Origin: a virus
DNA length: 31,079 nucleotides
Direction: 5' to 3' (one strand)
IMG/VR virus record: IMGVR_UViG_3300010885_027906
Location: 1-31,079 of that record
This document shows positions 7,505 to 31,079 of this stretch, in pieces. Numbering within the stretch: the first letter of the stretch is position 1; each line of letters starts with the position of its first letter. Both the position numbers and the translations under genes were made by a program. The notes under the pieces are model-generated. The model did no database searches. It was not told the origin of the DNA and was given only the letters and a program-made list of their open reading frames with translations.

Positions 7505-8782
7505 TTATGCTGGTGGACAACTAAAAGAACCAGGTTCTGTTAATGTTGTAGTATATGCTGGAAACTCACAACTTGGATAAAGGAATTGAACAATAGTGCC
7601 ATCTCCAAGACCAGAACCTCTATAGTAATAATTTATGGTAGGTAAATATACATTTGATGCCACTATAACACCTAAATAAACAGGATTACAATTATCATCA
7701 TAAATATTTGCCACATAATATGGACAAGATGGAGTTTGAGTTGGTGTTTTAGTATTAGTAGGTGTTGGTGTTATACCGCAATTAGGATCTACAACAATTG
7801 TCCATTGACTTGGTGCTCCCAAAGTTGGATATACTCTTGAACAGAATGGTCCAACAGTAGTTCCCGATGTTACATCTGGATAATAAATAAAATTACCTGT
7901 ATAACAATCAATATATGATAAACTTCTATTTCCTTCATCATTATTTGTACAAGTAAATCCTGTACAACTAATATCATGAGTTGGTGTTACAGTTGGTGTT
8001 GATGTGTGTGTTGGTGTATTAGTAGGTGTTGTTATAATTGATGTTGATGTTGGTGTCGGTGTATGTGTTGGTGTTGATGTGTGTGTTGCAGTTACACTTG
8101 GAGTTGGGGTTGGACATATTGCAGGATAAGCAAAATAAATAGGTTGATTAGCTGAACCAGACTGTAATCCTGATGATAAAATATAAGCACCACCTATAGT
8201 TGTTCCTGTATAACCAACTCCTCCAGTTCCTACAAATGTATTTACTTGATTATTGACTAAACTTCCTACTGTCTTGAATATAGTATATTGTCTTGATAAT
8301 GATGTAGGTTGAAAATAATAATTCGTTAGGGTATATGCTGTTGCTCCTACCGTTCTTACATACACTAAATAATTGTTTCCATCAGGTGATGTTCCTGTAT
8401 GGAAATATTCTTCAGGGTCATTATCTACCCAACCATAATCAAATGTTCCACCTGTATAACTTGTTGTTCTATAATAAGTTCCATTATAATCGGTAAAATT
8501 ATCCTTAAACTCTCCTTCCCAAGTTAAAGTAATTTCTTGAGGACAAGGTGGAGGAGTAGTTGGGGTAGGAGTTGGTGTATGTGATGGAGTTGGTGTTGGA
8601 TTTATAACACAATACCCAACTATATCTGGATTTTCGCAAGTAATAAGTGGCAATAAAACATTCATACAAATATTATCACCATAATATAATGTAAATGCTC
8701 CAACTTGACCTTCACAAGTTGTTCCAGAAACATAAACGCTTCCTTCATGATTATTTGTATTTTGATATATGATACAACTCAT
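7505..8782 (-). CDS. Modular fibre-like virion protein with Thr/Pro linkers (425 aa)
   Basis: Beads-on-a-string architecture. Residues 1-62 are a small Cys-rich module (MSCIIYQNTNNHEGSVYVSG, three further Cys). A short TPTP linker leads to a beta-rich module at about 79-222 (CPQEITLTWEGEF ... YPAICPTPTPS). A second Thr/Pro linker (about 223-270) leads to a second Cys module (about 271-340, SCTGFTCTNNDEGNRSLSYI, NCGITPTPT). A third linker precedes a terminal module (about 353-425, SCPYYVANIYDDNCNPVY). The two Cys modules look paralogous to each other (TNN-EG, then Y..C.G), and the beta module is paralogous to one inside the 1547-residue tail protein. No enzyme motif is seen. It lies between the large tail protein and the tape measure; receptor binding or tail decoration is inferred. 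Confidence 0.75.
   Translation of the reverse strand: MSCIIYQNTNNHEGSVYVSGTTCEGQVGAFTLYYGDNICMNVLLPLITCENPDIVGYCVINPTPTPSHTPTPTPTTPPPCPQEITLTWEGEFKDNFTDYNGTYYRTTSYTGGTFDYGWVDNDPEEYFHTGTSPDGNNYLVYVRTVGATAYTLTNYYFQPTSLSRQYTIFKTVGSLVNNQVNTFVGTGGVGYTGTTIGGAYILSSGLQSGSANQPIYFAYPAICPTPTPSVTATHTSTPTHTPTPTSTSIITTPTNTPTHTSTPTVTPTHDISCTGFTCTNNDEGNRSLSYIDCYTGNFIYYPDVTSGTTVGPFCSRVYPTLGAPSQWTIVVDPNCGITPTPTNTKTPTQTPSCPYYVANIYDDNCNPVYLGVIVASNVYLPTINYYYRGSGLGDGTIVQFLYPSCEFPAYTTTLTEPGSFSCPPA
7978..8114 (-). repeat. Thr/Pro-coding minisatellite in the 425-aa fibre gene
   Basis: Tandem GTTGGTGT-like units on the plus strand, read on the minus strand as (ACA CCA ACN) coding TPT/SPT/HTP. Shorter stretches of the same kind lie at 7735-7770 and 8560-8600. 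The units are imperfect and in frame. Confidence 0.85.
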
Positions 8783-8816
8783 AATATTAAATATGTTTTT
8801 TTTGTTTTTTAATTTA

Positions 8817-11800
8817 TTACCAACCTGAATAACTATATTTTGTTTTAAGATAATTTACAACATTAGTATTTTCTGTAGCTGTTAATTCTCTATTGTAATG
8901 TAAGAACTCAAATAGATATATTCCTTGACTTACAGTTCCACCATTATATCCCAATGAATATGAATTATATGTTTGTGGTGTATTTGCTGTTGAACCACTT
9001 GTTCCATCAACACCATTTATTGAACTATATAAATTACTTGAATTACCTGATGTAATCCAAAGTTGAGCGGCAGTTGAAACACTTTGTGCACGATTTCCTT
9101 TATAATTTCTTGCAGTAAAATTAGCAGATGATGTTGATACAAACCAAGTATTACTTCCACCTGATAATAAACTAATTGCCCATCCAGCAGAACTATTTGA
9201 GTAAGGTCTAAATACCATGTAAGATGTATGTGCTGATACATTTATTGATGATGTATTACCAGTCATGAAATCAACTGAATTACCAAACTCAACGGCTGTT
9301 CCTGTAAATCCTGTTCCAAGTGTTGCACCAGTTATAATTTGTGGTTGATTAGCTGCTACTGGTTGTGCTGCTGACCCACCTAATAAACCATAGTTAGGCC
9401 AAGATGAAACTGTTGCTCCACTTGCTGCCATAAACCATAATTGAAGATTGGTAATTCCTGATGGAGTAAATATTGGTTGTGTTGGTGTAGGTGTTGATGT
9501 AGGTGTTTTAGTTTGAGTTGGTGTATTAGTATTAGTTGGAGTCATAGATGGACTTGCAGTAATACTTGGTGTAGGAGTATTTGATGCGGTAATACTCGGT
9601 GTAGGTGTTTTAGTTTGAGTTGGTGTATTAGTATTAGTTGGTGTTACAGTATTAGTTGGAGTAACAGTTTGACTAGCAGTAATACTTGGTGTAGGTGTTA
9701 GTGTGGGTGTTGTTGTATTAGTAGGAGTATTAGTTTGACTTGCTGTAATACTTGGTGTAGGTGTATTGGTAGATGTATTGGTAGGTGTTTGTGTTGATGT
9801 TATACTTGGAGTTGGGGTAGATGTCGGACATATTGATGGATATGTAATTATTGAACCCCCTCCGAATTGTTGAAGACCTGGATTAGGATAAGATATTCCA
9901 CTACTTGTTGTATATCCTGAACTTAATGAGTATGATTGAAGTAAAGAACTATTAATCAAGAACCATTGAGGTGTAGAAATAGTTGGTATAAATCCAATAT
10001 TATAAATCCCTTTATTAAATATTTGATATGATACACCTAAATATGGACCTGCAATTTGTGTTGTTCCACTATAATATCCAATAATAGATGATGAATAAGT
10101 CCCATTAGCAGCACCAGAGAATTGAGGATTACTTGATAAATCAAGTTGTGTAGGACATACAGCATTAGGAGTATTTGATGGTGTAGGTGTCTGTGTTTGT
10201 GTTGCAGTATTTGTTGGTGTAGGTGTATTAGTTTGTGTTGCAGTATTAGTTGGTGTTACAGTTTGTGATGCTGTAATACTTGGAGTTGGAGTATTGGTTG
10301 AGGTATTAGTTACTGTAGGTGTATTAGTTTGACTTGCTGTAATTGAAGGTGTAGGTGTTTGTGTTTGAGTTGTTGTATTAGTAGGAGTAGCGGTATTAGT
10401 TGGCGTTGCTGTATTAGTAGGAGTTACAGTTTGTGATGCAGTATTGGTTGGTGTATTAGTATTAGTTGGTGTTTGTGTTTGAGTTGCAGTGTTGGTAGGA
10501 GTTGCAGTATTAGTAGGGGTCATAGTTTGACTTGCAGTTATACTTGGTGTTGGTGTCTGTGTTTGACTTGCTGTAATTGAAGGAGTTGGTGTTGGTGTTA
10601 ATCCAATAGTAACACTTGGAGTTGGAGTTACAGTTTGTGTTGCAGTATTGGTTGGTGTTGATGTTTGCGTTGATGTAGGCGTTGATGTTACATTAGGAGT
10701 TCGTGTTGGTGTTCTTGTTGGTATATTACTTCCTGTTGGTGTTGGTGTTAAAACAGGAATTGGATTAGTATTTTGAATAATAAGATTAAATGCTGTTCTA
10801 CCAGTACAAGCACAATCAGGATATACTCCAACATAATTATCTGTTTGACCTGAAGCAGAATCTGAAATATAATAATGTTGATAATTATGATTTTCATTAT
10901 AAGTTCCAAACTTAACTTGATAACAACCCAAATAAGTTAAATTATCATTGTATAATTTAACATATTTCTCATTATATGCATAAAAATTATAATTGATATC
11001 TGAATTGGAATATAATGTTTCATGACCATTACAATTTACCAAATCATAATACAATATTCTATGTGATTGATAATCTTTTGTTAGTTTAATCAATTCAATA
11101 TCACAGAGACCTGGCTCCAACATATTGAAATTGTTTATTTTATTTATTCTAAAATAATTGCTATCAATTAAAACCTTTTCATCAAATCTTAATTGCTTAA
11201 TATCTTCAGGATATAAATAAATCTTGGCAGCAAATATTTTACTTTCCTCACTTGTTAAATCATCAATATAATCTTTATAATAAACATCATACAAATCTTC
11301 TGCAACCATAAAGATTTCTGGTGGTTGAATTGTTGTTACATCTTCTCCACGAAAATTACAATAATGACTGAATCCCCATATATTAAATGGATATGTATCA
11401 AACCTATTCATCTCTTGGAATCTTCCCATAGGATATGTTGTTGATACCGAGTTCATATAATAAAATTGATAAGGATTTGCTCCACTTATTCCAACAAATC
11501 CATAATTGTCTTGTGGAAGAACAACACCTCTAAAAATCAATCTTGGTAATATCTTAAATGGTAAAAATGTTTGAATTGTTTTACCACCCTCATCTTTGTT
11601 ATTTATCTTTGAGAATGATGGTAGGGTAAGCATTGATTGATATGCACTTGTAATAGTGATATCTAATGGGCTTGAAAATATATGGTTAAACTCTGTTGTA
11701 CTATTCTTATAATCCAATCCAAGTTTTTTCTTATCTGTTCCAAATATTCTATTTGATGCTGTCCTATAATTTTGATTAGCATAATCTTGGTCTAACTGAA

Positions 11801-13460
11801 AATTATAATTGTATGTTCCATTTATAATGCTGGTGGTAGGTTGAATTAAAATAGGTTGACTTCTATCTATTCTTGTTGTCCAATCCAATATCTTTCCCTT
11901 ACCAATATAATCAACAATGGGTTCAATAATAAGTTGTCTTGGATAATCAGGATCTGGCACCAAAACAAGATTAAAATATCTATTGATACTTGTTATAAAA
12001 TCAATTTGCTTATAATCATTTAATGGAAACTCTTTTTGATAATCAATATCAACTCCTTGTTTAATTGCTGGTGGGGCTAAAGTAATACTAAACTTAAAAT
12101 CATATAAACTTGTACTTTCTCCTAAAAAATAAAAAGATATACTACTATTACCTGTTACTTGAAATTGTTTTTCAAATGAAATAGAAATTGGTGTTGATGT
12201 AAATCCAAAATCACTTCTTAATAATACTGTTTGACCACCTGAACCTTCAAAATATAATTTGGCATACGGATTTTGGTCATATCTTATTCTACAAGTACCT
12301 TGAGGGTCAGAACCTATAACATTAAAAGAATTACAATCATTAACAGGTATTGTTCCTTGTATAAAACTTCCTGATTGATTATAATAACTGTAAGTACAAT
12401 CAGTACTATTACAACCATCATTCTGAAACTCAATATTTGTAAACTGATTTGCTGCTAATGTATATTCAAACTTAAATGTATATAGACCTGCATTTAATAA
12501 TGGAATAATAAATGCCTGTGGAGTGTGACTCCAATTAAAATTATTACAAATAATACCTTCATCAGGTTTTGTATAATATGGAGTTACTGGATCTAAATAA
12601 CTAAATCCTTGATTAAAATATGTATAACAAGGTTGACTGGCATTCCTTTCATAAATTGTTTCATCAGTAAACTTGAGAGGCATATAAAATCTCTCAAAAT
12701 AATTCGTATCAAAAAACTTACTATTGATTGTATAACCTGCTTGATTAACAATCCTTGTATATAATTCTTTTATTTGTAATGTTGGTTTATAATAATAATC
12801 ATGAACTGGTGTTTGTTGATTATCAAAAAATCCATATATTGGAGTATATGTATCTGCAGTAAATGGTGAAAATTGAACTAATGGACTTACTTCAACATTT
12901 ACAGTATTACCTGATTTATAATCATATCCAATATTATAAAGACCCCACATAGTTTTTCCATTCTGATATGAATAATCTGTTGTGCCAGTTAATGGAAATA
13001 AATTAAAATCTACATTACTTTGCAATATTACATTAGGACTAAATGGGTGATTAAGGTCAGCTAAATCAGTATCAATTAAAAACTTATCCCCAATGTTTGC
13101 AGCTAAATCTCCAACTTGATTATAAAAAGTTATTTGATAAATGATTTCATCTTTAATAATTGATACACTATCCAATCTAATATTACCTTGCAATATTTCA
13201 TAACCATCCCAAGTTAAGATTGTTTCAAACTTATTGTTGGGGTTATAATTTACAGGAACAGAACTTACATTATAGTAATAATTGAATATCTGATTATTAT
13301 TTTTAGTACCAGGTAATCTAAATGATTGACTGAATGCACTATTCTTTGTTGTAACATCAGACAATTCAGCAAATGATAAACTCATCATTACTGGTTCATC
13401 TTCGTAGATGTCCAAAAACTTATGTTCTCCTTCTATTGTAGTCCTAATTCTTAAACTCAT
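8817..13460 (-). CDS. Giant tail protein: hub-like N terminus, Thr/Pro linkers, lectin-like C terminus (1547 aa)
   Basis: Residues 1-900 are a structural tail protein. The start, with FLDIYEDEPVMMSLSFAEL, KNSAFSQSFRLPGTKNNNQI and TWDGYEILQGNIRLDSVSI, matches a baseplate/tail-tip type common in Bacteroidetes phages. After about residue 905 comes a long Thr/Pro/Asn/Ser linker (DNA 10750-10167). Then follows a beta module (about 1095-1205: CPTQLDLSSNPQF, then SIITYPSICPT) like that in the 425-residue protein, and a second linker (9826-9476). The final 210 residues are a LamG/concanavalin-like domain (GITNLQLWFMAASGATVSSW, TSYMVFRPYSN, GIYLFEFLHYNRELTATEN). Such domains bind glycans, so this is the best receptor-binding candidate. 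It lies 3 bp from the 555-residue tail gene. The hub role is inferred from position. Confidence 0.82.
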   Translation of the reverse strand: MSLRIRTTIEGEHKFLDIYEDEPVMMSLSFAELSDVTTKNSAFSQSFRLPGTKNNNQIFNYYYNVSSVPVNYNPNNKFETILTWDGYEILQGNIRLDSVSIIKDEIIYQITFYNQVGDLAANIGDKFLIDTDLADLNHPFSPNVILQSNVDFNLFPLTGTTDYSYQNGKTMWGLYNIGYDYKSGNTVNVEVSPLVQFSPFTADTYTPIYGFFDNQQTPVHDYYYKPTLQIKELYTRIVNQAGYTINSKFFDTNYFERFYMPLKFTDETIYERNASQPCYTYFNQGFSYLDPVTPYYTKPDEGIICNNFNWSHTPQAFIIPLLNAGLYTFKFEYTLAANQFTNIEFQNDGCNSTDCTYSYYNQSGSFIQGTIPVNDCNSFNVIGSDPQGTCRIRYDQNPYAKLYFEGSGGQTVLLRSDFGFTSTPISISFEKQFQVTGNSSISFYFLGESTSLYDFKFSITLAPPAIKQGVDIDYQKEFPLNDYKQIDFITSINRYFNLVLVPDPDYPRQLIIEPIVDYIGKGKILDWTTRIDRSQPILIQPTTSIINGTYNYNFQLDQDYANQNYRTASNRIFGTDKKKLGLDYKNSTTEFNHIFSSPLDITITSAYQSMLTLPSFSKINNKDEGGKTIQTFLPFKILPRLIFRGVVLPQDNYGFVGISGANPYQFYYMNSVSTTYPMGRFQEMNRFDTYPFNIWGFSHYCNFRGEDVTTIQPPEIFMVAEDLYDVYYKDYIDDLTSEESKIFAAKIYLYPEDIKQLRFDEKVLIDSNYFRINKINNFNMLEPGLCDIELIKLTKDYQSHRILYYDLVNCNGHETLYSNSDINYNFYAYNEKYVKLYNDNLTYLGCYQVKFGTYNENHNYQHYYISDSASGQTDNYVGVYPDCACTGRTAFNLIIQNTNPIPVLTPTPTGSNIPTRTPTRTPNVTSTPTSTQTSTPTNTATQTVTPTPSVTIGLTPTPTPSITASQTQTPTPSITASQTMTPTNTATPTNTATQTQTPTNTNTPTNTASQTVTPTNTATPTNTATPTNTTTQTQTPTPSITASQTNTPTVTNTSTNTPTPSITASQTVTPTNTATQTNTPTPTNTATQTQTPTPSNTPNAVCPTQLDLSSNPQFSGAANGTYSSSIIGYYSGTTQIAGPYLGVSYQIFNKGIYNIGFIPTISTPQWFLINSSLLQSYSLSSGYTTSSGISYPNPGLQQFGGGSIITYPSICPTSTPTPSITSTQTPTNTSTNTPTPSITASQTNTPTNTTTPTLTPTPSITASQTVTPTNTVTPTNTNTPTQTKTPTPSITASNTPTPSITASPSMTPTNTNTPTQTKTPTSTPTPTQPIFTPSGITNLQLWFMAASGATVSSWPNYGLLGGSAAQPVAANQPQIITGATLGTGFTGTAVEFGNSVDFMTGNTSSINVSAHTSYMVFRPYSNSSAGWAISLLSGGSNTWFVSTSSANFTARNYKGNRAQSVSTAAQLWITSGNSSNLYSSINGVDGTSGSTANTPQTYNSYSLGYNGGTVSQGIYLFEFLHYNRELTATENTNVVNYLKTKYSYSGW
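9476..9826 (-). repeat. Thr/Pro-coding minisatellite, downstream tract of the giant tail gene
   Basis: About 350 bp of imperfect GT-rich units coding [11 protein letters not shown]- and TPTNT-type repeats. The cluster unit [17 protein letters not shown] is also present in the second tract of this gene and in the 633-residue gene, so homologous exchange is possible. Confidence 0.88.
10167..10750 (-). repeat. Thr/Pro-coding minisatellite, upstream tract of the giant tail gene
   Basis: About 580 bp of the same unit family as 9476-9826, separated from it by one globular beta module (coded 9827-10166). It is the longest Thr/Pro tract in the window. Confidence 0.88.
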
Positions 13461-15701: not shown

Positions 15702-17603
15702 TTAAGTATTTGAAGGAGTTGGGGTTACAGAAATAAATGAATTGAATGCTGCATTACATCTATCAAGTGGCATCATCACTTTAATCTTTAATAAACCAGT
15801 CCACCCTCCACATAAATCACTATAACTTTCAAGGAATGGGGTACATTCAATAACATCATCAATATAATATTTCTCGTTAAAGTTCCCCAAACTATTTGTT
15901 ACTGATAATCTAAATTGAGATATGATATCATCCAATATTTGATTTGTATCACTTAATACATCAACCTGATTTGCTAAATCCCTATTCACAATATCCATTA
16001 CAATACAATTAAACTCATAGGTTGCAAAACTTGAACCATTTTCAATTATCTCTTGTATTGCATTTGATGGAACAACATATAGTAATGGGAAGAATGGGCT
16101 CTCAAATGTTGGGTTGCTTTCTTTCAATCTACTTTCAGTCCAATAAGATAAATCTTCTAATGAACCAAACCCAAATGAATTAAGTTGTTTGTGATGGTCA
16201 GCCAATAATCTAAAGTCATCATGGAATGTCTTAAAGTTTATTGTCTCATGATTGATTGGTGTTCCTGTAAAGATGTTATAAGCTGCTGCACATCTATCAA
16301 GTGGGGTCATTGTTTTTATTTTTAATTCAGCATTCCAACCATTTGTAAGGTCAGAATATTTTTCAAGGAATGGTGTATATTGAATGCTGGTATCTAAATA
16401 ATATTTTGAGTTATAATTTCCCTGTTCTCTATTTATGGACAATCTAAATTGACTTACCACATCTTGAAGCATTTGCAATGTATCACTTAATGTATCAACC
16501 TGATTGGCTAAATCTCTATCTACAATATCCATCATAATACAATTAAAGTTCCATTCTTTGTATCTTAAATCATTAACCACCTTATCTGGTACAACATACA
16601 TTAAAGGAAATATTGGACTCTCAAATGTGGTGTTGGGGTCTTTATCTCTTAATTGCGTCCAATAACTTAATTGGTCAGTATCACCTAATCCATAAGAATT
16701 GATTTGCTTATGATAAAAAGACATTTTTTGTAGGTCATCAGCAATTGTTTTGAAGTTAATACTTTGTTCACCTAATGGAGTTTGTGTTGGTGTGGGTGTT
16801 GGTGTGGGTGTTCCTGTTTGAGTGGGTGTTATATTGATTGTAGATGTATTGGTTGGTGTTAAAGTTGGCGTTGATGTATTGGTAGGTGTAGATGTATTAG
16901 TAGGCGTATTAGTTGTTGTAGGTGTGTTAGTTGGTGTTGGTGTATTGGTTGGTGTTTGTGTTTGACTTGCAGTTATACTTGGTGTAGGTGTTGTAGTATT
17001 AGTAGGCGTATTAGTTGGAGTAGATGTTTGAGTTGCTGTATTAGTCGGTGTAGATGTATTAGTTGCGGTGTTTGTAATTGTTTGTGTTGGGGTATTGGTT
17101 GGTGTTTTAGTTGGTGTAGGCGTTTTTGTATTAGTTGGGGTAGAAGTATTGGTAGGAGTAGATGTATTAGTTTGTGTTGGTGTGTTAGTTGGTGTTGGTG
17201 TGTTAGTTTGACTTGCGGTAATTGAAGGTGTTGGTGTAGGTGTTAATCCAACAGTCGCAGTTGGTGTTGGGGTTGCAGTATTTGTTGGAGTTACAGTTGG
17301 TTGAATACTACAACCCATATATCCTGCTGGTTGAGGAAATCCATTAAAAATATACCAAGTAGCATAATTGCCTGATGATATTTCATTTGACCAATAACCA
17401 TAAGGAACACGAGTTGTTAAAGCAGCATCAAGATATAATACATCAAATGTTGTTAAACATGGCCAACAAGTTAAACCAGCATTAGTACAACTTACACATT
17501 GAAATGGTGATGTTATATTTGCATAAATTAAAAATGATGGTCCTTGTGAGCACGCATCATTACTTGTTAATCCACTTGATACTAAAAATGATACTAAAGC
17601 CAT
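15702..17603 (-). CDS. Duplicated neck/tail structural protein with a displayed N-terminal module on a Thr/Pro stalk (633 aa)
   Basis: Three parts. Residues 1-105 are a Cys/Trp-containing module ([39 protein letters not shown]). Residues 105-275 are Thr/Pro/Asn linker (DNA 17301-16780). Residues about 278-455 and 454-625 are tandem copies of one structural domain: both have [68 protein letters not shown] and LKIK.M.PLDRC.AA. The domain resembles a neck or tail-terminator-like protein usually found as a single copy. A receptor-binding-like module has apparently been fused to it through the stalk. The ATG overlaps the stop of the -1 frame of the upstream gene as TAATG. Confidence 0.75.
16780..17301 (-). 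repeat. Thr/Pro-coding minisatellite in the 633-aa gene
   Basis: About 520 bp of GT-rich units coding [13 protein letters not shown]-type repeats, with one [11 protein letters not shown] cluster at each end. It separates the Cys/Trp module from the duplicated structural domains. Confidence 0.88.
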
Positions 17604-22230: not shown

Positions 22231-22881
22231 TTATTTTTTTTGATATAATGTATCATAGGTAAATCTTTGTAAGATTTCATATCCTAATGATTCTAATAGT
22301 TTATTGAACTCTTCTAAATTGATTTTATTATCATAGTTCTTAACTTGGAAATGCCATGTTTCAGCATAAATAAATTGTGGTCTTAATTCTCCCAATGTTG
22401 ATAATACTTTATCTTCTGCTCCTTCTACATCAATATGTATAAAATCTATTTTTGTTATTGAATGTTTTTTGCAGAATGTATCTATTCTCATTGTTTCAAC
22501 TTCAACTCCTTTATCATCATATGTTACAGGGTGATTGATGGCTAGATTGGTATTTTCTCTTAATATTGGTTTTATAATTGAACCAGCAAATCTCCAATCA
22601 ATTTTCTTTTCTGTCTCAAATAAGCTTGGATAAAATGTTGTTGTTCCATCAAAATCAGCAAATGCCAAATTGAATGGTTTAACTTTATTATTGATTGCCT
22701 TTTGTGAATGTCTATCAAAATTGGTTTTATCTGCTTCAATTCCATATACATCAGCATTGGGAAATAATTGTTTGAGGTGCATTGCTTCTGTAAAATCACA
22801 TGAGCCAATATCAAACATTGTTAATTTTTCATCTTTTGAAAATCTTTCATTCAATTTTTGTATTACTATTTGTTCTGCCAT
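22231..22881 (-). CDS. FkbM-family methyltransferase (216 aa)
   Basis: A class I SAM-dependent methyltransferase. Motif I is FDIGSCDF near residue 23, the acidic ribose-binding residue is in VYGIEADKTNFDRH near residue 50, and the later FkbM signature is ETMRIDTFCKKHSITKIDFI with HIDVEGAEDKVLSTLGEL and IYAETWHF. FkbM enzymes O-methylate sugars or small molecules. In a phage the target may be a surface glycan, a modified nucleotide or a glycosylated virion protein; none of these can be read from the sequence. Its ATG overlaps the end of the sigma-like gene by 16 bp, and the DUF5856-like gene starts 5 bp after it. The Thr/Pro-rich virion proteins are a speculative substrate if glycosylated. Confidence 0.88.
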   Translation of the reverse strand: MAEQIVIQKLNERFSKDEKLTMFDIGSCDFTEAMHLKQLFPNADVYGIEADKTNFDRHSQKAINNKVKPFNLAFADFDGTTTFYPSLFETEKKIDWRFAGSIIKPILRENTNLAINHPVTYDDKGVEVETMRIDTFCKKHSITKIDFIHIDVEGAEDKVLSTLGELRPQFIYAETWHFQVKNYDNKINLEEFNKLLESLGYEILQRFTYDTLYQKK

Positions 22882-23360
22882 ATTTTGTTTCTTTCTTTAA
22901 TTAAAATCTTTTTAATTTTATTGATATCTCTGCTAATGCTGTTGAGAGGTATTGTTGTTCTTTTTGATAACTTTGTTAAGCTGCACCCTTCTTCTATGTA
23001 TAATTCCATCAACCTCCAATAATACCATTCTGTTTTCTTTTTTTCTTCTATCAATTCTTTAACCCAATCTAATGTAATAATATCTTCTTCTATCTTATCT
23101 TCAATATCAACATTGAATAATTCTACCAATCTATGATTTCTATTCTCATAATAAAAGTTGGAAGATTTGCTTGCCGCATTATTCATTACAATTCTTGTAA
23201 AAAAATAAATCTTTTTATTATCAGGAATATCTTTTGCTCTCTTATTTTTTAAGAATTGTTCAATGCAACTCTGGCATAAATCATCTGTATCAATATTGAT
23301 GTTAAACTTATTGCAGATGGTTTTTATCTTTGAATAATTCTCTTCTACCCATTTGTTCAT
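22866..23360 (-). CDS. Sigma-factor-like protein (164 aa)
   Basis: Opens MNKWVEENYSKIKTICNKFN, continues with DDLCQSCIEQFLKNKRAKDI and NKKIYFFTRIVMNNAASKSS (region-2-like helices), and ends with a helix-turn-helix (YIEEGCSLTKLSKRTTIPLN, SISRDINKIKKILIKER) in the place of region 4. Small sigma-70/ECF-like proteins of this layout are common in Bacteroidetes phages and could redirect host RNA polymerase to late genes. The promoter-melting aromatic motif of region 2 is weak, so a DNA-binding regulator without sigma activity remains possible. It sits mid-operon ahead of packaging genes, a sensible place for a late activator. Confidence 0.75.
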   Translation of the reverse strand: MNKWVEENYSKIKTICNKFNINIDTDDLCQSCIEQFLKNKRAKDIPDNKKIYFFTRIVMNNAASKSSNFYYENRNHRLVELFNVDIEDKIEEDIITLDWVKELIEEKKKTEWYYWRLMELYIEEGCSLTKLSKRTTIPLNSISRDINKIKKILIKERNKIWQNK

Positions 23361-23392: not shown

Positions 23393-23668
23393 TTAACCTG
23401 CGATTGTTGATATGGTATTTAACTTCTTTTTTAATCTGTTGAGGATTTCTATTTCTTCAAATAATTCAACTTCCAATGCTCGTTGGATTCTCATATCCAA
23501 AAAATAATTGTATTCATGAATAGTTAATTTGCTAAAATCCCACTTGAAAAAAATATCATCTGTAATCATATTCTTTTCTTCTTCGGTTAATGTCCAATAA
23601 TCCTTAACTTTCTTATTTTCCAATTTCTCATTTAGGAACTGATTTAAGACCTGTTTTTGTTCGTTCAT
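23393..23668 (-). CDS. Unknown small protein (91 aa)
   Basis: I chose ATG 23668 (MNEQKQVLNQFLNEKLENKK) rather than the TTG four codons upstream. Charged and helical: YWTLTEEEKNMITDDIFFKW, then FSKLTIHEYNYFLDMRIQRA, then EVELFEEIEILNRLKKKLN. The 'LT.eE...I..DIFF.WdFskLTi.Ey' section could be a small protein-interaction domain. No motif recognised. It lies between a 69-residue unknown and the sigma-like gene in the same operon. Confidence 0.6.
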   Translation of the reverse strand: MNEQKQVLNQFLNEKLENKKVKDYWTLTEEEKNMITDDIFFKWDFSKLTIHEYNYFLDMRIQRALEVELFEEIEILNRLKKKLNTISTIAG

Positions 23669-23713
23669 ACATTCTATCAATTTAATAAAGATCGTTGAAG
23701 GAAGGGGTGTTTC

Positions 23714-23923
23714 CTAATCAATAAACCCCATTAAGGAGTTAGGATTATCTTCCAATTTTTTTAATTGAATAGCATTCTCAATGCTCCATTTATTATATTC
23801 AAGATATAATTGATTCATATCTGATTGTTGAAGTGATGATAATTGACTTTCATTTCCTTTGTTCCAACTTACATCACTAAATAGAACTCTAAATCTATCT
23901 GGTATATTTTTTATATCTCTCAT
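23714..23923 (-). CDS. Unknown small protein (69 aa)
   Basis: Starts MRDIKNIPDRFRVLFSDVSW and continues NKGNESQLSSLQQSDMNQLY and NKWSIENAIQLKKLEDNPNS. Acidic to neutral, probably helical. Its ATG overlaps the stop of the initiator-like gene as TAATG, so it is translationally coupled to replication and may be an accessory factor there, for example a helicase-loader-like partner; that is inference from position only. Confidence 0.58.
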   Translation of the reverse strand: MRDIKNIPDRFRVLFSDVSWNKGNESQLSSLQQSDMNQLYLEYNKWSIENAIQLKKLEDNPNSLMGFID

Positions 23924-24465
23924 TACTTTTTATTTAATATTCTGTTTATTTCTTCTTCCATTTCAATAGTAGGTTTATCAAAAATATCTAATTCAATTTT
24001 TTCTATACTAGTACTAGAATTAATATTTCTTATATTATTATTTTGTATTTTATTATTTTGTTTCTTATTACTTTGTATACATACTGGATCTCGGATATCC
24101 GAATCCCGGATTGACTGAACTTCAGTAAGCCCGAGATCCAGTAAGTCCGAAGCAGGTTCTTCATAAACAATATGATTGTATCCTTTAATTAAATTAGAAG
24201 TACTATCAATCATTTTAATAGAAACAATATATCCTAATCCAACAAGACCAATCCAATGTTTATTAAATCTATCCCTACCAATATTCATATCTTTCCATAT
24301 TTCACTTTTATAAACAACCCAATCTTCTGGTAATGATAAAAGATGAACCAAAATTGATTTTTGTTCTGGACTTAAAGTTTTTGATTGTAAAATATTATTA
24401 TTGATTGGAGTATATCTACTCTTACCATTTTTTTTGCTTCTTACAATTTGACCTGTATTTTTCAT
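23923..24465 (-). CDS. Winged-helix replication-initiator-like protein (180 aa)
   Basis: Residues 15-110 form a helix-turn-helix/winged-helix domain: SRYTPINNNILQSKTLSPEQ, KSILVHLLSLPEDWVVYKSE, IWKDMNIGRDRFNKHWIGLV, GLGYIVSIKMID. This 'yt.i.N..l....L...a..il..LlSLP.dWv..k..i.....igr..f...w..L...GYI' pattern matches N-terminal DNA-binding domains of phage and plasmid initiators (lambda-O-like, HTH_36-like). The C-terminal half is low-complexity: EPASDLLDLGLTEVQSIRDS, then an Asn/Lys/Gln repeat (QNNKIQNNNIRN). The DNA coding this half contains AT-rich 13-mers and GC-rich palindromes, as if the origin sits in the gene, like ori in lambda O. First gene after promoter P2. Confidence 0.72.
   Translation of the reverse strand: MKNTGQIVRSKKNGKSRYTPINNNILQSKTLSPEQKSILVHLLSLPEDWVVYKSEIWKDMNIGRDRFNKHWIGLVGLGYIVSIKMIDSTSNLIKGYNHIVYEEPASDLLDLGLTEVQSIRDSDIRDPVCIQSNKKQNNKIQNNNIRNINSSTSIEKIELDIFDKPTIEMEEEINRILNKK
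24008..24151. other. Candidate replication origin inside the initiator gene
   Basis: Three AT-rich 13-mers at exactly 15-bp spacing: TTATTATTTTGTA (24035-24047), TTATTATTTTGTT (24050-24062) and TTATTACTTTGTA (24065-24077). Next to them is an unusually GC-rich block. It holds a perfect 12-bp inverted repeat ACTGGATCTCGG (24083-24094) and CCGAGATCCAGT (24131-24142). Nested in that are palindromes TCGGATATCCGA (24091-24102), AATCC-C-GGATT (24102-24112) and ACTGAA-C-TTCAGT (24114-24126). CTAGTACTAG lies on the far side (24008-24017). AT-rich 13-mers beside initiator sites are the layout of many origins. The 15-bp period also equals five codons, so a coding repeat could explain part of it. Confidence 0.55.
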
Positions 24466-24478
24466 AATTTATAAAATA

Positions 24479-26468: not shown

Positions 26469-27965
26469 TTATGGACAAACTCCACCATCAGTTATAACCC
26501 AATTATAAGCTCCTGTTAATATCGCTCTATTAGCAGTTGCTAAAGAATTATAACATACATCAGCATCAAATACATTGTATTGTTGTAATGTTGGTAATGT
26601 ACTCCATCCAATATACATATTATCCAAGTTTATTGAACTAAGTGATGTTGCATTTATAAACATTCCACTCATATTTGCAACATTAGATACATCCCATCCA
26701 CCAATATTTTGATTAAATGATGATGAATTATAAAACATATATTGCATATCAGTTACATTAGATACATTCCAATTAGAAATATTTTGATTAAAATATATTG
26801 AATCAGAAAACATATTATTTGTAGATGTTACATTGGACATGTCCCATTCATTTAATCTATTAACTGTTAATATAGTAGTATTTTGAAATAATGATTGACC
26901 ACCAGTTCCACTTATTAATGGAAGATCTGTAACTGCATCAAGTGTTAAATTAATACAATCAGCAAAAGCACCATCAACATTCAATAAAAGACCTGTTCCC
27001 CATTGAGTAACACTTATTATTTTATTATGATAAGATACAGGATAACTATCAAATTCATAAAAAGAAAATCCATTAATTGTTCCTGATATTGTAATTGTAT
27101 AATCTCCAGCAACTTCATAAGTGTGAGATATATTTGCAAATGTATTTGCTGAAACATTCCCATCACCCCAATCTATTGTTCCACTATAAGTTCCAGCTGG
27201 ATCATAAGGTAATCTTACTATTTCATTACTTCCTGTTGTTCTCCATACACTAATAAATGGTGTCGCTGCTGCTGATGTTGCAGATGGAGTTGGTGTAGGA
27301 GTTACATTTGGTGTTCCTGTTGGCGTTGATGTGTTAGTTGATGTAGGTGTAGGAGTAACAACTGATAATGTTTTAGTTGGTGTAGGTGTTGGTGTTTTGG
27401 TTGATGTAGGTGTAGGCGTAACAACTGATGATGTTTTAGTTGGTGTAGGTGTTTTAGTTGGTGTAGGTGTTTTAGTTGGTGTAGGTGTTTTGGTTGATGT
27501 AGGTGTATGTGTTGCTGTAACAGAAGGTGTTGGTGTATGTGATGCCGTAACAGAAGGTGTTGGCGTGTGTGATGGAGTTATTGATGGTGTAGGTGTATTA
27601 CTTGGAGTTGGTGCCGGAGCATTCACATTATTTACAACAAAACTCAATACATCAGAATTACTAACAATAGGAGTTTCCAAAACATTTATTCCTGAACCAC
27701 AATCAGTAAGACTATAAAGAACACCATTAACATAATATTCAATTTGAGCATCTCCCCATAAAAGATTTAGATATATTAAACCTGTTGTATTTCCAAAAAA
27801 AGAAAAATAATTATTTGTTATTAAGTCATTAGTACCAGATATTGTATTTCCACTTAATAATGGAAATGAACCAGAATTAACTTGAAACATACTGCTTCCA
27901 TATGGATAAGATCCAATTTCAGTTATTTCTGTTTGAGATGTATTTGATTTAATTGAAAAACTCAT
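26469..27965 (-). CDS. PKD/BspA-repeat surface adhesin on a Thr/Pro stalk (498 aa)
   Basis: Residues 1-115 are an N-terminal beta domain ([20 protein letters not shown]). About 116-230 is a Thr/Pro/Lys linker ([30 protein letters not shown]). Around 235-300 is a PKD-like domain ([34 protein letters not shown]). About 350-480 holds BspA/DUF285 repeats of some 25 residues: [60 protein letters not shown]. BspA repeats mediate surface binding in bacteria and appear in viral fibres. No signal peptide is seen, so a virion fibre is more likely than an exported lipoprotein. Last gene before the late terminator, which is typical for host-range genes. Confidence 0.85.
27282..27616 (-). repeat. Thr/Pro-coding minisatellite in the PKD/BspA adhesin gene
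   Basis: About 330 bp coding [14 protein letters not shown] and [12 protein letters not shown] repeats. It is richer in Lys and His than the other tracts, so it has diverged from, or was acquired separately from, the TPTNT type. Confidence 0.86.
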
Positions 27966-30142: not shown

Positions 30143-31079
30143 TTGTTATTGGATTTACTTCAGGATTATTTGTTGCTGGAACCTGAGTATCAACAACATC
30201 TTTATTTACATCATTAACATTTTCATGAACTGGTGCTACATCAGGAACTGTAACCATATCAAATTGTTTAACAACAATCTCTGCTGGTCTCTTATCTCTC
30301 AATAATAATAATTTCTCAAATACTTTTTTGATTTCAGTTTGAATTGGTTTAATAACCAAATGTTGAAAGTGGTCTTGTGCTTCTAAATGGTCAGGAGTTC
30401 CTAAACCACCAGGAGTAATAATTCCCAATAATTCAGGACTACTAATTTGATGTGATGTTAGAATTGCTTGTTGAACAGCAGCTGCCATTTCAATCCACAT
30501 CTTATCACTTGAATTAGGTGTTATTTGTGTAACCTCTGGTGCTTGGTCTTTACCATCAGAAAAAGTTAAAAACAATTTACCAGCATTATTAGAACCACCA
30601 TACTTGGCGGTCATATTGTTAAAGATTTGTTCTCTTTGTTCAGGATCGGGAATACCTGAATTGATGGCAACAAATAATGATGGTTGAAGATTATTACAAA
30701 TGTTATTATACCACCAATTATAGATTTCTATTTCACTCGCTACAGCCGTGGCACCACCCCAATAACTTGGAGTAGCATAAAAATTATTACCACAACTATG
30801 AGTTGTATGATAAAAAACTTGGGATGGCTCTTCATTAAGAATATCAAATGATGCAAGTTTTCTTGGGATAAACTTTTTCGGGTAAGCCCAATCAGCACAA
30901 TAATAATAATGATGTACTCTATCATATAAATCTGATTTTTCTGCTCTTAATTTGGAACAATCCATATAATACATCTCAAATCCCATATCTCTATCTTGTC
31001 TCCAAACTATATTGATACTAAAGGCTCCATACAAAATAAAATCTAATGCACATTTGCTCCACAAATCAAATAAACTATC
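30135..31079 (-). CDS. Phage portal protein, C-terminal part (continues from position 1-411)
   Basis: This is the rest of the 410-residue portal protein; its 5' end is at 411 after circularisation. Visible portal features include an early DLWSKCALDFILYGAF helix, a stem-like stretch with EIEIYNWWYNNICNN followed by QPSLFVAINSG, then KYGGSNNAGKLFLTFSDG, and near the end the SSPELLGIITPGGLGT motif seen in many siphophage portals. The C-terminal 40 residues are low-complexity (Asn/Val/Pro-rich), probably a flexible tail. It ends with TAG at 30135 and overlaps the connector gene (start 30142) by 8 bp, suggesting translational coupling. The portal lies downstream of the capsid gene here, the reverse of the usual order. 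Confidence 0.87.
   Translation of the reverse strand, partial: DSLFDLWSKCALDFILYGAFSINIVWRQDRDMGFEMYYMDCSKLRAEKSDLYDRVHHYYYCADWAYPKKFIPRKLASFDILNEEPSQVFYHTTHSCGNNFYATPSYWGGATAVASEIEIYNWWYNNICNNLQPSLFVAINSGIPDPEQREQIFNNMTAKYGGSNNAGKLFLTFSDGKDQAPEVTQITPNSSDKMWIEMAAAVQQAILTSHQISSPELLGIITPGGLGTPDHLEAQDHFQHLVIKPIQTEIKKVFEKLLLLRDKRPAEIVVKQFDMVTVPDVAPVHENVNDVNKDVVDTQVPATNNPEVNPITNE
30957..31079. repeat. Right copy of 123-bp terminal direct repeat
   Basis: Exact copy of bases 1-123. Merging the two copies closes the circle and restores one uninterrupted portal reading frame: the start at 411 lies exactly 101 codons upstream of the methionine codon at 31064. Confidence 0.95.

Follow-up and report, generated by a model that had tools for sequence, protein, structure and literature searches.

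The rep gene and its genomic context

The window (the whole stretch of DNA that was analysed, a 31,079-base virus record) carries a perfect terminal direct repeat of 123 bp at positions 1–123 and 30957–31079, because of which the assembly is probably complete and circular; such a repeat fits the assembly of either a circular or a terminally redundant genome. The genes are mostly on the minus strand, and since the best matches of the terminase large subunit include Bacteroides and Flavobacterium phages (~32% identity), the host of the phage is likely a member of the Bacteroidota. The gene of interest, rep (23923–24465, minus strand), encodes a 180 aa protein matching the PHROGs families phrog_186 (DnaD-like helicase loader, 1e-8), phrog_4707 (replication initiation, 2e-8) and phrog_1456 (DNA binding protein, 2e-12), and tblastn searches with this protein matched the Rep of phage TP901-1 (2e-8), as well as initiators of Streptococcus and Staphylococcus phages. 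A small protein with weak sigma-factor or HTH matches is encoded at 22866–23360, and a protein 50% identical to it is encoded downstream of rep in one relative (L012).

The AlphaFold model of the window Rep comprises a confidently predicted N-terminal winged helix (residues 20–100, in a wHTH domain of approximately residues 1–104), a disordered linker (~105–163, with pLDDT <50 for residues 109–163) and a short C-terminal helix (residues 166–179). The nearest solved folds identified with Foldseek were Geobacillus primosomal DnaB (5wtn) and domain 1 of RctB (5ubd), with modest scores (best E-value 2e-3). A Pfam search gave no matches for the window Rep, HTH_36 was found below the cut-off in several of its relatives, and a PDB sequence profile search returned only weak, irrelevant matches. 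Family match, fold and gene neighbourhood agree with the original prediction of a winged-helix replication initiator, and the rep product is probably such a protein. It belongs to a group of short Rep proteins (167–185 aa) lacking the C-terminal domain that is found in most relatives.

A half-site array and AT-rich repeats in the Rep linker

A GC-rich block of nested palindromes had been predicted within rep, bounded by an inverted repeat (24083–24094 and 24131–24142) and adjoining three AT-rich 13-mers starting at 24035, 24050 and 24065, and all of these coordinates were correct. The GC-rich block is real, with a GC content of 50.7% for the 75-nt linker versus 22.0% for the remainder of rep, and reaches further than was proposed, to position 24149. 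It contains C[G/A]G/C[C/T]G half-sites with a 16-bp period (24084–24149), and the array unit is an 11-bp site, CGG-N5-C[C/T]G, whose copies start, on the coding strand, at 24149, 24133, 24117 and 24101. On this (minus) strand, site 1 (CGGACTTACTG, 24139–24149), site 2 (CGGGCTTACTG, 24123–24133), the inverted site 3 (CAGTCAATCCG, 24107–24117) and site 4, the palindrome CGGATATCCG (24092–24101), start exactly 16 bp apart, a period found across the family, and are followed by an extra half-site CAG that begins at 24086 (24084–24086). In this direction the linker reads CGGACTTACTG-GATCT-CGGGCTTACTG-AAGTT-CAGTCAATCCG-GGATT-CGGATATCCG-AGATC-CAG.

The bounding inverted repeat is perfect, as predicted, and measures 13 bp rather than 12 (24082–24094 and 24131–24143), as the 12-bp core arms ACTGGATCTCGG and CCGAGATCCAGT are extended by T24082 and A24143. 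It is a by-product of the half-site array with its 16-bp period, in which two junctions face each other, and the 11-bp site rather than the inverted repeat is the underlying unit. The inverted repeat is not itself what is conserved, and was rejected as an RNA stem, since a comparison of five relatives showed that pairing is retained at most half-site positions, while the spacer pairs are broken without compensation. The array block folds as single-stranded DNA (z = -6.7), and has the highest CGG/CCG density of the window (6 in 80 bp, with 3 for the runner-up). It is located ~315–380 bp into rep, and a scan of the window for CGG-N5-C[C/T]G found no copies outside the array, including the region of the rep promoter, nor was a second array found in the window.

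Since rep is on the minus strand, the GC-rich array precedes the AT-rich repeats in the coding direction. The three 13-mers (TTATTATTTTGTA, TTATTATTTTGTT and TTATTACTTTGTA, spaced 15 and 15 bp) form a putative DNA-unwinding element of three AT-rich 15-bp repeats (24035–24075, minus strand), with one copy of CAAAGTAATAA (24065–24075) and two of CAAAATAATAA (24050–24060 and 24035–24045) on the coding strand; this element is conserved in relatives as ACAAAGTAATAAT repeats. The predicted frame-keeping period of 15 bp holds in the window, where the repeats encode the repeated peptide QSNKKQNNKIQNNNI, but not in the relatives, where the corresponding decamer is usually spaced 16 bp apart and is read in two frames. 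In our judgement the repeats of the window alone are about what the peptide QSNKKQNNKIQNNNI requires, and because the peptide nearly dictates them they were excluded as evidence; it is the relatives that suggest that the AT-rich repeats matter as DNA. Beyond the AT-rich repeats, a palindromic element CTAGTACTAGTAT (24005–24017, minus strand) is also present in relatives with a short Rep. This element may only be coding (peptide TSIE), or could be a third origin element.

Selection on the linker DNA

The linker was compared with 5000 synonymous recodings, in which the linker peptide is kept and codons are drawn according to the codon usage of the phage itself. Not one of the 5000 contained at least four TCGG/CCGA half-sites (mean 0.23), none had the 13-bp inverted repeat (mean 2.3), and none reached 38 G+C (mean 27). 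The linker uses codons that are rare in the other genes counted, where CGG is never used and CTG and CTC represent 0.3% and 1.6% of the Leu codons, as well as TCG, which represents only 1.5% of the Ser codons elsewhere. In 58 distinct linkers (the window and its relatives), 289 TCGG/CCGA half-sites were observed versus 59 expected (the mean of 300 recoding sets, maximum 77), and these occupied all three reading frames, often inside a single gene. The spacing between half-sites of the same orientation peaked at 16 bp (146 pairs) and 32 bp (60 pairs), and as 16 is not divisible by three, this 16-bp spacing cannot result from a peptide repeat. On the linker side, 34 of the 64 distinct sequences carry the AT-rich decamer AAAGTAATAA, with 63 copies in total, read in two frames (AAA-GTA-ATA and CAA-AGT-AAT) and most often spaced 16 bp apart; the N-terminal coding parts of these genes, amounting to 19.7 kb, contain no copy. 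As judged from the sequences, selection acts on the linker DNA rather than on the peptide, since half-sites and decamer occur in multiple frames and mostly at 16-bp spacing, rare codons are used, and no recoding reproduced the pattern.

A lack of repeat conservation in close relatives, beyond the needs of the peptide, had been named as a refutation of the original prediction; the array proved to be conserved across dozens of relatives, far more than the peptide demands, which supports that prediction. A pattern-only scan of 2.9 million viral contigs in IMG/VR for two tandem sites, which took no account of the protein, yielded three contigs, with the sites located in rep linkers in all of them. 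The relatives are mutually related and the sequence counts are thus not independent events, but the arguments from frame, spacing and codon null are unaffected by kinship, since they work within single sequences. Two divergent relatives, L033 and L082, each lack TCGG/CCGA, and repeated CGG-N5-CCG was recognised by eye in L082. Both the array and the AT-rich repeats coincide with the part of Rep that is predicted to be disordered.

Rep relatives and the neighbouring helicase gene

Searches of IMG/VR identified 73 relatives, and a search of genome contigs with the Rep protein as query confirmed none. A DnaB-family helicase gene was detected in 31 of the relatives, and was located directly after rep in 30 of these, with L082 as the exception (examples with DnaB directly downstream are L014, L015, L017–L030, L046–L050, L054 and L056–L058). 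For three relatives the helicase was confirmed by Pfam DnaB_C matches of 1e-61 to 1e-85. The presence of a DnaB gene adjoining rep is independent evidence that Rep starts replication. The group of short Rep proteins to which the window phage belongs has neither the downstream DnaB gene nor the Rep C-terminal domain, and no recognisable DnaB was found in the window phage itself.

Comparison with known phage origins

According to PMC8965321, ORF13 of Lactococcus phage TP901-1 and ORF16 of phage Tuc2009 (P335-type replisome organizers) each bind regions rich in direct repeats inside the gene that encodes them, and these regions act as the origin. TP901-1 shares with the window a homologous wHTH domain and, in the linker directly after it, short GC-richer repeats followed by three AT-rich repeats at 15 bp; its origin is inside the initiator gene (PMC8965321), as predicted for the window. 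The systems differ in the sequence and period of the sites (15 bp in TP901-1, versus 16-bp CGG/CCG half-sites in the window), in the long C-terminal region of TP901-1 Rep, which is absent from the 180 aa Rep of the window, and in the host, which belongs to the Bacillota for TP901-1 and probably to the Bacteroidota for the window phage. The TP901-1-type features found here are a homologous wHTH initiator, an in-gene array under DNA-level selection, and AT-rich repeats adjoining the array in a fixed order. A similar arrangement was seen in the Staphylococcus phages phiNM1 and BE21, where the initiator gene holds TCGG/CGG-containing repeats at 15 bp and, after these, ACTAATAAT repeats at 15 bp, but the repeats are mainly direct ones, whereas the half-sites of the window alternate in orientation at 16 bp, and the initiator of both phages has a helicase loader gene next to it rather than the DnaB gene of the window phage's relatives.

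The parallel originally drawn was with phage lambda, which has its origin within the O gene, with iterons of internal inverted symmetry beside an AT-rich, unwinding-sensitive region (PMC6022878). The architecture agrees, with symmetric iterons adjoining an AT-rich region inside the initiator gene, and lambda is the right analogy, with TP901-1 and Tuc2009 being the closer one. The lambda iterons differ in containing 18-bp inverted repeats and in being present in four copies, and as only the architecture was compared, the predicted origin of the window would work like ori-lambda without being a member of that class. In Bacillus phage SPP1, oriL consists of direct repeats and an AT-rich unwinding element inside initiator gene 38 (PMC6316719); this resembles the repeats and AT-rich element in rep, but SPP1 has a second origin, oriR, whereas the window shows no second array.

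In the Streptococcus phages Javan37 and phi7917, the rep reading frame ends shortly downstream of the winged helix, and is directly followed by repeats and AT-rich DNA that are apparently non-coding (truncated initiator and array at L086:1011–1176 and L085:1030–1176, respectively). The Javan37 array comprises three copies at spacings of 32 and 16 bp and is spanned by an annotated hypothetical ORF of 38 aa, while the phi7917 array has two copies of 31 nt at a spacing of 31 bp and is located between annotated genes; both are followed by AT-rich, TACTAA-containing DNA. The apparent arrays of these distant relatives suggest that the origin-like element need not be coding.

A putative replication origin within rep

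We propose that the linker of this winged-helix initiator gene doubles as a replication origin, and assign a probability of roughly 0.86 to this reading together with the mechanism outlined here. The in-gene origin is very probably real, with the origin function itself being what we infer, and there is direct support for the array and its spacing, the DNA-level selection, the conservation, the order of the elements, the initiator family and the link with DnaB in relatives. The N-terminal winged helix of Rep would bind the CGG/CCG half-site array with its 16-bp period, and the resulting nucleoprotein complex would melt the adjoining AT-rich repeats, allowing the replicative helicase to be loaded there. 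This helicase would be the host DnaB in the window phage, and in many relatives a DnaB that the phage itself encodes. The linker, being disordered and sequence-tolerant, would accommodate the origin DNA without harm to the protein fold. A point against an origin is that the window Rep lacks a C-terminal domain that could contact the helicase.

Alternatively, the array may be an operator or other regulatory site, used by Rep or another phage protein for autorepression or as a transcription roadblock. Palindromic half-site arrays are equally typical of operators, and initiators often autoregulate. However, a location this far inside rep, with no further CGG-N5-C[C/T]G at the promoter or elsewhere in the window, argues against such a role, and an operator does not need the conserved AT-rich block that follows the array in fixed order; in addition, the homologous in-gene repeats of TP901-1 have been published as an origin (PMC8965321). 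We therefore consider a regulatory site instead of an origin to be unlikely. It is less likely still that the palindromic block forms a functional structure in the rep mRNA, such as an attenuator or an element controlling stability or translation, since the strong fold of the window sequence (calculated as a DNA strand) is not matched by compensated spacer pairs in the five relatives, where half-sites are mostly complementary, and it is the spacing and half-site sequence that are conserved rather than one helix. Such a structure would also leave the adjacent AT-rich repeats unexplained.

The explanation to which we give least credence is that the repeats result simply from the low complexity of the linker peptide (QSNN, SDIRD) together with AT-rich codon bias, and that the DNA pattern has no function. 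While this would account for the AT-rich 15-bp repeats of the window, which are in frame and code for a repeated peptide, it is already contradicted by the recoding, multi-frame and decamer results, as three frames are used by the half-sites and two by AAAGTAATAA, with 16 bp as the predominant spacing, and the linker uses codons nearly absent elsewhere in a pattern matched by none of the 5000 recodings. The arrays of the two Streptococcus phages furthermore lie beyond the rep coding sequence.

The layout of an origin inside a gene is already known, and what is new here is the evidence from multiple reading frames, together with conservation across a large group of uncultivated phages; our literature search did not find in-gene origins in Bacteroidota phages. 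The probable origin of an uncultivated, probably Bacteroidota-infecting phage group is thereby placed within ~120 bp, and half-sites and AT decamers that recur across the reading frames of one gene provide an annotation-free test for in-gene origins. The locus represents a single DNA stretch under two constraints, with the predicted origin located in the one disordered part of Rep and the peptide following the DNA. Coding and non-coding states of the array can be compared, since in the Streptococcus relatives a comparable array seems to be located immediately outside the shortened rep. More speculatively, wHTH initiators of Bacteroidota-type and Bacillota phages might share one design, consisting of half-sites at 15–16 bp followed by AT-rich 15/16-bp repeats, and situated either in the disordered linker or, where the initiator is truncated, immediately after it. 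If this tentative joint reading holds, the AT decamer (AAAGTAATAA, or ACTAATAAT in the Staphylococcus phages) might be a sequence-specific element for single-strand loading, analogous to DnaA-trios, and more than an easily melted stretch.

GC skew and DnaA boxes

Along most of the window the cumulative GC skew declines, with a rise across the PT-rich tail genes, and the cumulative extremes of third-position GC and AT are both located after the gene at 23393–23680 (permutation p = 0.30 and 0.038, respectively). As nearly all genes are on one strand, the skew is uninformative about the origin. Long PT-rich repeats (TPTPTNTPT) are present in several genes of the window (7505–13460, 15702–17603 and 26469–27965), and the local GC skew is reversed there. 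No DnaA boxes (TTATCCACA) were found near the array, and this sequence matches the window at 1386 and 18551 only. In both Javan37 and phi7917, the consensus DnaA box TTATCCACA is present near the end of the initiator reading frame.
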